Of a stretch of DNA of 64,000 nt, positions 247-30,810 are shown piece by piece. The DNA is from Blattabacterium cuenoti (GTDB lineage Bacteria > Bacteroidota > Bacteroidia > Flavobacteriales > Blattabacteriaceae), in NCBI RefSeq assembly GCF_014252355.1, contig NZ_CP059217.1, forward strand, positions 227,273 through 291,272, given 5' to 3'. Positions within the stretch are counted from its first letter, which is position 1. The number at the start of each line of letters is the position of its first letter. Both the position numbers and the translations under genes were made by a program. The notes beneath the pieces are model-generated. The model ran no database searches and was not told the origin of the DNA. It saw nothing but the letters and a program-made list of their open reading frames with translations.

Positions 247-1045
247 TTAGTTTTTTTTTGTAGTAGAAAAATATTTAGATATATAAATACTAATTTGATA
301 TAAAATTAATAATGGAATTAAAACAATTATTGTACTTATTAGATCTCCTGGTGTAATTGCCGATGAAAAAATTAAAATAATTAAAAAAGCATGTTTTTTA
401 TATTTTGTTAAAAAAATATTAGAAAGTAATTCTAATTTCGTTAACATATATATAAATAATGGAAAAAGAAATGTTATACCCATAGATAATATTGTGTTTA
501 TTATTAATGATATATAATCGGATAAATCAAATATATTTTTAGGTATAGAACTAATTTGAAAGTTTGTGCCAAAAAAAATAATAAAAGGAAATAATACAAA
601 ATAACCGAAACATATACCAAATAAAAATAATAATGATGCAATGATTAAAATATTTTGAGTATATTTTTTTTCTTGGTTAGATAATGCAGGACATATAAAC
701 ATCCAAAATTCATAAAATATGTACGGAAAGGATAATATAACCCCCCCCCATAAACAAGCCCATATATAAATATTAAATTGACCAAAAATTGATCTATTTT
801 GTATTTCTAAATGTTTTTCTGAAAACATTGAATAAATTGGAGTATGAAAAAAAAAATGATAATTTAGAAATAATTCTATAAGTAAAAAAATTGTTTTTAA
901 CAGGACCAAAAAGTATATAATCAAATATAAAATATTTATTCTGCATAAGAATAATTGTTGCAATCACAATTGCAATAAGACTACGTATTATATGTTTTCT
1001 TAATTCTTCAATATGTCTCCACACAGGCAGTATTTTTTCTTTCAT
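247..1045 (-). CDS. tatC: Twin-arginine translocase subunit TatC, frameshifted at an A10/T10 run
   Basis: TatC is the multi-spanning receptor of the twin-arginine export system in the inner membrane. The 5' part, from the ATG at 1045, reads MKEKILPVWRHIEELRKHI and continues through GPVKNNFFTYRIISKLSFFF. The reading then has to move to a second frame to continue with HTPIYSMFSEKHLEIQNRS, QFNIYIW, FWMFICPAL, ITPGDLIST and PLLILYQISI, all TatC family blocks. The switch falls exactly at an A10 run on the + strand (847-856). Removing one base restores a protein of about 265 residues, a normal TatC length. A G9 run lies inside the gene at 741-749. No other lesion is visible, so the gene may be rescued by polymerase slippage rather than be dead. 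Confidence 0.85.
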
Positions 1046-28396: not shown

Positions 28397-28930
28397 ATGA
28401 ATAATATTACAGACATAATTATTGTATTAATATTTTTATATAGTGGATATTCTGGATATCAGAAAGGATTAATTGATCAACTATTTAAGTTTATTATACT
28501 ATTTATTATCCTATATAAAGGAATTATTGTTTTTCAGTTAGTTTCTAAAGTTGTTTCAGAATATGTTCTTCATAATCATGAACTTGTAAATAAAAATCAA
28601 TTATTATTTTATATTTATTCTATATATTTTTTGATGATAATATTTATATCTTTTTCAATTAAAAAAATAATAGAAATTTTATTAAAAACGACTTGTGGTC
28701 CTTTTATTAATAAAATATTAGGAAGTTTACTAGGAATTACAAACTCTTTTGTTTATATCTCTATATTAATTTCTTTTTTGAAAGAAATGAATAATAAAAT
28801 TCATTTCATTCCTTATAAATATTTTCACAAATTCTTCTTTGAAGAAGAATTTCAATATATTTTCTTGATATTTAAAAATGTTTTTATATTTTTTTTAAAA
28901 AAAATGGCAGCATTGTATGATATACTTTAA
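28397..28930 (+). CDS. cvpA: CvpA family membrane protein
   Basis: The 177-residue protein has four hydrophobic segments and begins TDIIIVLIFLYSGYSGYQKG, the CvpA pattern in which the first helix is followed by a glycine- and lysine-containing turn. A GSLLGITNSFVYIS block matches the last conserved helices. CvpA was named for colicin V production, but its role elsewhere is unclear. Placement divergent from pheS is usual in Flavobacteriia. A 14-bp palindrome (ATACTTTAAAGTAT, 28922-28935) spans its stop codon. Confidence 0.8.
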   Translation: MNNITDIIIVLIFLYSGYSGYQKGLIDQLFKFIILFIILYKGIIVFQLVSKVVSEYVLHNHELVNKNQLLFYIYSIYFLMIIFISFSIKKIIEILLKTTCGPFINKILGSLLGITNSFVYISILISFLKEMNNKIHFIPYKYFHKFFFEEEFQYIFLIFKNVFIFFLKKMAALYDIL

Positions 28931-29115
28931 AGTATGGTATGTTGAAATAATAAATAAATTGACAATAAAATCTTTTTACTTTACTAACATCATAGTATTA
29001 TATTAGTTACATCATCTGTGTATTAGTATTAATTATTATAATCAATTTGTTTTATATGTTGTATGTAGTACTATGTAGTAGTATGTAGTATGTAACAAAT
29101 AGAATTAATCATGAT

Positions 29116-30810
29116 TTATAAAATTTCATAATATTTTTTTAAAGTTGTTTCTAAAGTAAAATTTCCATTTTTAAGAATCGTTGTTTTTTCCATAACTGTT
29201 TTATCTGATGTTTTTTGAGAAGTTTTATAACTTTTATAAAAAACAAATGTTATTAAACATAAAAAAAATATCATTGCCCATTCTTTTAAAAAATCTAAAA
29301 TAGTAGCCGTAATACCAGACATTGTAAATGCAATTAATCCAGTTAGAAACCAGCCTCTTATAACTTTTAAAACTCCTGAAACCCTGTATACTGCAGTTTA
29401 TATATCCCAAGCTATATCTGAAAGCGATGTTCCCATAGAAACCATGAAAGTAACAAAAGTAGTAGATAGTGGAAGTTTATGAACAGTAGCTATATAAATA
29501 AGTATACTTGATATGGTTAAATTTGAAGAAGCTATTACTAGATCAAAGGCAATACTGTCATCTTTTTGTATTTTTTGTTTAAAATTTTTTTCTATTTTAA
29601 CTAAAAACCGTTTGGAAAATAAATTGAAAAATTTATTTCCAACGAATAAAAAAAATCGAACAATTTTTCTAGACATAACAAAATTTGACAAAAAAGTGTC
29701 ATGGTCATGTTCTTCATGTTTTCTGCTTAAATTAAGTTCTGTGCTAGAAATTTTTTTAGTTGTTGTAGAAACCCAAAGTGTTAATATCATAATAATTCCT
29801 GAACAAATTAAAATTAAAGAAGGAACAGGAACTTTTCCAGATAAACTTGTCATATGTAATTTTTCCGCTGGAGGACAACCTGCTGATGTCCATATGTTGT
29901 AAGACTGAATACTCGCTATAGGTATTCCGATAAAATTTACTATATCATTTCCTGAAAAAGCCATTGATAAAGAAAATATCTCATATAATACAACAAATTT
30001 TAAAATGTTATATCCTAATAAAGAAACCAATAGCTTTGATCCCAATAGACATATAAAAAATAACAATAACAAAACAAGATAAAAATGATGATGTATACAC
30101 ATGATCAAAGGATGTATCAATAAAGAAAATTTTGTTAAATGCTCTTCCATCACTTTATGTATTACTTTAAAAATATGTCATAATACTCAATGAAATAGCA
30201 GACCATATCATATAACTCCTATACATGGTAATTTACTTTTATATTCAAAGCTGAATAAAAAACGAATAAAATAGTGAATTAATGAACCAGAAGTAAAAGA
30301 AATTAAAATAGATAAAAAAATTACTATTCCAATTTGAAGTGTTTTTTCTGCTTTAATATAATGACTTAAATGATGTAACGGTTCATTACATAATGGAGAA
30401 TACATTTTAATTATTGCTATACTCAATGCACCTCCTAATAAACAAAACACCATTGATACTGTGGTAGAAGATGTTGGTAATTGGTAATCCTAAAGTATTA
30501 AAAATATACAATAATATGATATCTGAAATCATGACAGCTAGAAAAATCAAAATTAGATCAGATAAATAAAAATAAGAAGGATCAAAAACTCCTTTTCTTG
30601 CTACTTACATCATTCCGCTACGCTAGACAAAAAAGAACCAAACAATAATATTCCCAAGTTAGCAAATATCATAATAGTTTTTCTAGAAGCTACTTTAGAT
30701 CCAAGAGCAGAATTTAGAAAATTGACTGCATCATTAATTAAACCAACAATAAGATCAAAAATAGATAAAATAAACAAAATCACTATAATTAATGGATAAA
30801 AAAGTTTCAT
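29116..30810 (-). pseudogene. pit: Decayed Pit-type inorganic phosphate permease
   Basis: Fragments of one Pit phosphate transporter lie in order. They are DLIVGLINDAVNFLNSALGS with SRKTIMI (30610-30810), VARKGVFDPSYF, TVSMVFCLLGGALSIA (30208-30453), AFSGNDIVNFIGIPIA and LPLSTTFVTFMVSMGTSLSD (29398-30153), and AVYRVSGVL to the end at 29116. The lesions seen are a TAGCG duplication (30616-30625), a Glu-to-TAA nonsense (30605-30607), a TTACCAA duplication (30474-30487), an ATATG duplication (30204-30213), a one-base indel near 30169-30173 and a nonsense TAA (29398-29400). Undoing them restores family sequence at each junction. Preservation between the lesions is high, so inactivation looks recent. 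Confidence 0.92.

Follow-up and report, generated by a model that had tools for sequence, protein, structure and literature searches.

A homopolymer frameshift in tatC, probably inherited by two Blattabacterium species and bypassed by slippage at the run

According to Tamas et al. (2008, in PNAS) and Wernegreen et al., as cited in PMC3017870 and PMC5009743, frameshifts in poly(A) or poly(T) tracts of Buchnera and Blochmannia genes are reportedly corrected by transcriptional slippage. Homopolymer frameshifts that are conserved and selectively kept are an established kind in insect endosymbionts (PMC3017870 and references therein). In Blochmannia vafer, dnaX, dnaG, pth, and other genes each carry one poly-A/T frameshift, and at least one of these, that of dnaX, has also been inferred in a second species (PMC3017870). 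For frameshifted Buchnera and Blochmannia genes, the fraction of corrected transcripts was 12–50% according to a review (PMC5009743). In E. coli, RNA polymerase makes indels on T runs of at least 7, prefers poly-T over poly-A for slippage from 7 T up, and also makes deletions on T8 (PMC6260861).

The tatC gene of the Blattabacterium studied here resembles the slippage genes of Buchnera and Blochmannia in that it belongs to an AT-rich insect endosymbiont, has its one indel within a long A/T run, is otherwise intact, shares its frameshift with another species, and is under purifying selection. It is also like the B. vafer genes in having one poly-A/T frameshift per gene and like dnaX in recurring in a second species (PMC3017870), and the slippage proposed for it would be of the kind seen on the T runs of the E. 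coli reporters, although those data come from engineered constructs and from the E. coli polymerase, not that of Blattabacterium (PMC6260861). Buchnera and Blochmannia are Gammaproteobacteria, whereas the tatC case lies in Bacteroidota. The phenomenon itself is known from Buchnera and Blochmannia; what tatC would add is an example from another phylum, Bacteroidota, and from another gene, with good comparative support. A search by titles and abstracts in a partial literature collection found no paper on slippage-rescued Blattabacterium genes.

The genome analyzed here (G000), that of a Blattabacterium, a cockroach endosymbiont, is a single contig of 567,420 bp, and the window, the whole 64,000-nucleotide stretch of DNA under analysis, corresponds to its positions 227273–291272. 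The features of the tatC locus, in window coordinates, are as follows.

247–1045, minus strand: the whole tatC gene in two frames, assigned from the frames, Pfam TatC, and TatC relatives in PDB
857–1045, minus strand: the 5' part of tatC, frame 0, 63 codons, with the N-terminal HIEELRKH motif and the first membrane helix
847–856, minus strand: the T10 run, A10 in plus-strand letters, which shifts the frame and is where slippage is proposed
794–846, minus strand: the tail read out of frame in the product made without slippage (SYSNLFNVFRKTFRNTK, then a stop)
247–846, minus strand: the 3' part of tatC, +1 frame, with membrane helices 2–6, under purifying selection
741–749, minus strand: an in-frame run of G9 (C9 in plus-strand letters; WGGV in the protein), outside the mechanism

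From the ATG at 1045, the zero frame of tatC reaches a stop after 83 codons (ORF 794–1045); codon 63 is TCA, directly followed by the T10 run. The +1 frame (ORF 247–963) carries the remaining TatC (Pfam TatC, E 6.5e-44). The match to PF00902, the TatC family, covers positions 10–208 of 208 and thereby reaches the last family position, and the beginning of the family is matched by the short 5' ORF (TIGR00945), indicating a TatC family match over the full length. A structure-database comparison likewise found TatC relatives in PDB. The TIGR04519 profile had no match here and none in any control either, so it is uninformative, and a scan for promoters and terminators gave matches no more frequent than chance. 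The preliminary description, made from the window alone, had stated that the A10 run at 847–856 breaks the tatC frame, and the run (T10 in the coding strand) is indeed present with the ORFs split at it. When the T10 run is read as nine T, KLSFFF is joined to HTPIY and a 265-aa TatC results, a length usual for the genus (mostly 257–271 aa among congeners), in agreement with the normal-length product that had been predicted. The frame is regained by U9 (−1) or U12 (+2). The T10 frameshift was also rightly described as the sole lesion of tatC.

A search of 36 congeners turned up TatC in every one, and it was intact in 35 of them. The only other broken copy is that of G036, which has the identical T10 run at the same position, with the same flanking bases and the same frameshift. 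The lesion thus consists of one indel within a long A/T tract; the gene is otherwise intact, and the frameshift is conserved between species. G036 shares 91% DNA identity with G000 over 176 kb; in both a TatC tree and a YchF tree, it is the sister of G000, and G002 is the next branch. At the corresponding position, G002 has a T12 run that is in frame, so the T10 length can be viewed either as one base extra or as two fewer than the T12 of G002. Because the next branch beyond the sister carries this in-frame run, the T run is probably older than the split of G000, G036, and G002, and the out-of-frame length most simply goes back to an ancestor that G000 and G036 share.

A different history would have an in-frame ancestor, with T10 either arisen separately in the two lineages or present as a common allele in both populations; the gene would then have been intact while selection acted on it, and the present copies would be new losses or polymorphism. 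Long T runs are generally mutable, T10 has no direct date, and the selection signal averages the whole divergence, all of which speak for such a history. However, it needs the same change twice, and among uninterrupted non-coding runs of at least 8, length was kept between G000 and G036 in 14 of 16 cases, making two identical independent T10 events less likely. The lack of a second lesion in tatC also weighs against a recent or flickering frameshift, which we consider unlikely. In-frame T or A runs of 8–12 occur in the same variable TatC loop in G002, G007, G008, and G027, and these genomes are therefore one indel away from the frameshifted state.

To assess selection past the run, the 3' parts of G000 and G036 were compared. 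They differ at 44 sites, distributed 10/4/30 over codon positions 1/2/3 (chi-square p 3e-6), and neither contains a stop in the +1 frame. The dN/dS 3' of the run was 0.17, or 0.15 over 195 codons in a later comparison, and that of the 5' part was 0.29. For the whole gene, dN/dS was 0.18, below that of 134 of 155 genes of the same genome pair, whose median was 0.33. Only 15 amino-acid changes were observed 3' of the run, compared with about 32.5 expected without constraint. When the same base changes were scattered at random in a neutral simulation, none of the 20,000 simulated copies had as few as 15 amino-acid changes, and about 95% gained a stop. The dN/dS values, the third-position bias, and the simulations together demonstrate purifying selection 3' of the frameshift; the relaxed selection and accumulating lesions of a pseudogene were not seen in tatC. 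If the frameshift is ancestral, all of the selection measured here acted on a gene that was out of frame in its DNA.

Since the sister has the identical lesion and the protein is still guarded by selection, the extra base is most likely skipped when the gene is read. We consider it probable that tatC is a working gene whose frameshift dates from an ancestor common to two or more Blattabacterium species, and that slippage bypasses it, RNA polymerase on poly-T being the likeliest agent. The coding-strand T10 would set tatC out of frame, and RNA polymerase on this run would produce a part of the transcripts with one U lost (U9) or two gained (U12), which would encode full-length TatC in sufficient amount. 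The run falls in a variable loop that follows the first membrane helix and tolerates one more Phe, as with the in-frame T12 of G002. The remaining transcripts would give a short, useless peptide of 76–83 aa. The possibility of slippage and retained function had already been raised in the preliminary description, and it gains support from the shared lesion, the selection downstream, the lack of a second lesion, and the lack of an alternative start in G036.

The selection data would be accounted for equally well by ribosomal +1 frameshifting, in which the tRNA-Phe on UUU slips ahead by a single base inside the U run and translation continues in the downstream frame. The sequence UUU UUU UUU U permits perfect re-pairing one base on, and small endosymbiont genomes permit corrective frameshifting (review PMC5009743). 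However, the codon after the run is UCA, so that neither a stop nor a clearly slow codon stands there, the folds beside the run form no notable stimulatory structure (z −1.5 and +1.0), and the insect-endosymbiont precedents are transcriptional (PMC3017870 and PMC5009743). Rescue by the ribosome therefore seems improbable.

The two tatC ORFs could also be translated separately and their halves assemble, and in G000 the downstream frame does have TTG codons upstream of the run and an ATG 18 nt after it. In G036, however, ATA stands in place of this ATG, the downstream frame is closed by a TAA 27 nt upstream, and no ATG, GTG, or TTG occurs for 150 nt after the run. With no ordinary start codon near the run in G036, halves that start separately are very unlikely. 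Nor is the tail of the 5' ORF conserved: in G036 it reads SYSNLFNIFI before the stop, unlike SYSNLFNVFRKTFRNTK in G000. We reject an internal restart on the start and stop pattern of G036, and we give a split gene practically no credence.

Slippage at the T10 run remains the preferred reading, and some points speak against it or against a purely functional view. Among Buchnera transcripts examined by CirSeq, insertions dominate in runs and no indel restored a reading frame (PMC5574713). The commonest slippage product elsewhere, +1, leaves the tatC frame unrestored, and −1 or +2 is required. If only function counted, reversion to T9 would be expected, and it is absent in G000 and G036. A more far-reaching idea is that T10 is maintained, not just tolerated, with slippage fixing a low Tat dose for few substrates, in which case tatC would be an example of programmed frameshifting in Bacteroidota; we regard this as quite unlikely.

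Long coding runs were surveyed in 180 kb of G000, and 40 A/T runs of at least 10 were found in frame inside ORFs of at least 100 aa. A long A/T run per se is therefore ordinary, and that of tatC is unusual in being out of frame and common to G036. Homopolymers are a classic site of sequencing or assembly error, and the real run might be nine T. Against this, the run has equal length in two divergent genomes, the 40 other long runs of the same assembly read in frame, which makes homopolymer miscalling unlikely, and no second frameshift of the tatC kind occurs in the 180 kb. We hold an error to be very improbable. Whereas eight genes are frameshifted in one genome of B. vafer (PMC3017870), tatC is the only one in the 180 kb of G000 examined, where further single-lesion frameshifts were not found. 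The other junctions flagged there proved to be ORFs antisense to ribosomal-protein genes, an indel at the C-terminal end of rpsP, an ORF in rRNA, and multi-lesion decay of cdsA.

The BLAST junction search overlooked one decayed gene because BLAST runs through stops, and a comparison of ORF lengths found it:

28900–30810, minus strand: a decayed PiT-type phosphate transporter gene with several stops and out-of-frame stretches, its C-terminus lost

In the sister G036, this transporter is intact, with 762 codons. The phosphatidate cytidylyltransferase gene cdsA, which lies outside the window at about 380.9–381.7 kb of G000, has several breaks and is likewise intact in G036; cdsA is usually essential. 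Unlike tatC, the truly lost genes of G000 (PiT and cdsA) carry several lesions.

The genome also contains partners and a candidate substrate for TatC. Two TatA-family genes (PF02416) are present in G000 and two in G036, all intact. An ActB-like ORF of about 970 codons, which starts with the twin-arginine motif TSRRDFLK, is intact in both genomes; its TIGR01409 match of 15.9 bits is slightly under the curated cut-off of 16.7. This gene lies directly 3' of a multiheme cytochrome gene, as in alternative complex III (ActA-ActB). QrcA/QrcB matches at the pair are below cut-off, and the name ActB-like rests on these matches and the gene order. Given the intact tatA genes and this twin-arginine protein, there would be something for a Tat channel to transport, and TatC with the two TatA proteins would export Tat substrates including the ActB-like respiratory subunit. 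Automatic annotation would score tatC as broken and the Tat pathway as lost, and the comparison indicates otherwise. Our reading would carry the idea of slippage rescue into a second bacterial phylum, and the locus offers a clean test case: one gene and one run, two out-of-frame species, an in-frame outgroup, and decayed genes as controls.

The G9 run at 741–749 had been put forward as a second slippery site. The run is real and lies in frame, and in G036 it is broken up, reading GGGGTGGAG with synonymous changes only; slippage there would therefore only do harm, and this part of the proposal is not supported. At the start of the window, whose directly preceding bases are masked, positions 1–231 of the plus strand hold the 3' end of a gene for a beta-barrel-like membrane protein, whose lysine-rich tail consists of a 30-bp tandem repeat; G036 has a different repeat at this place.
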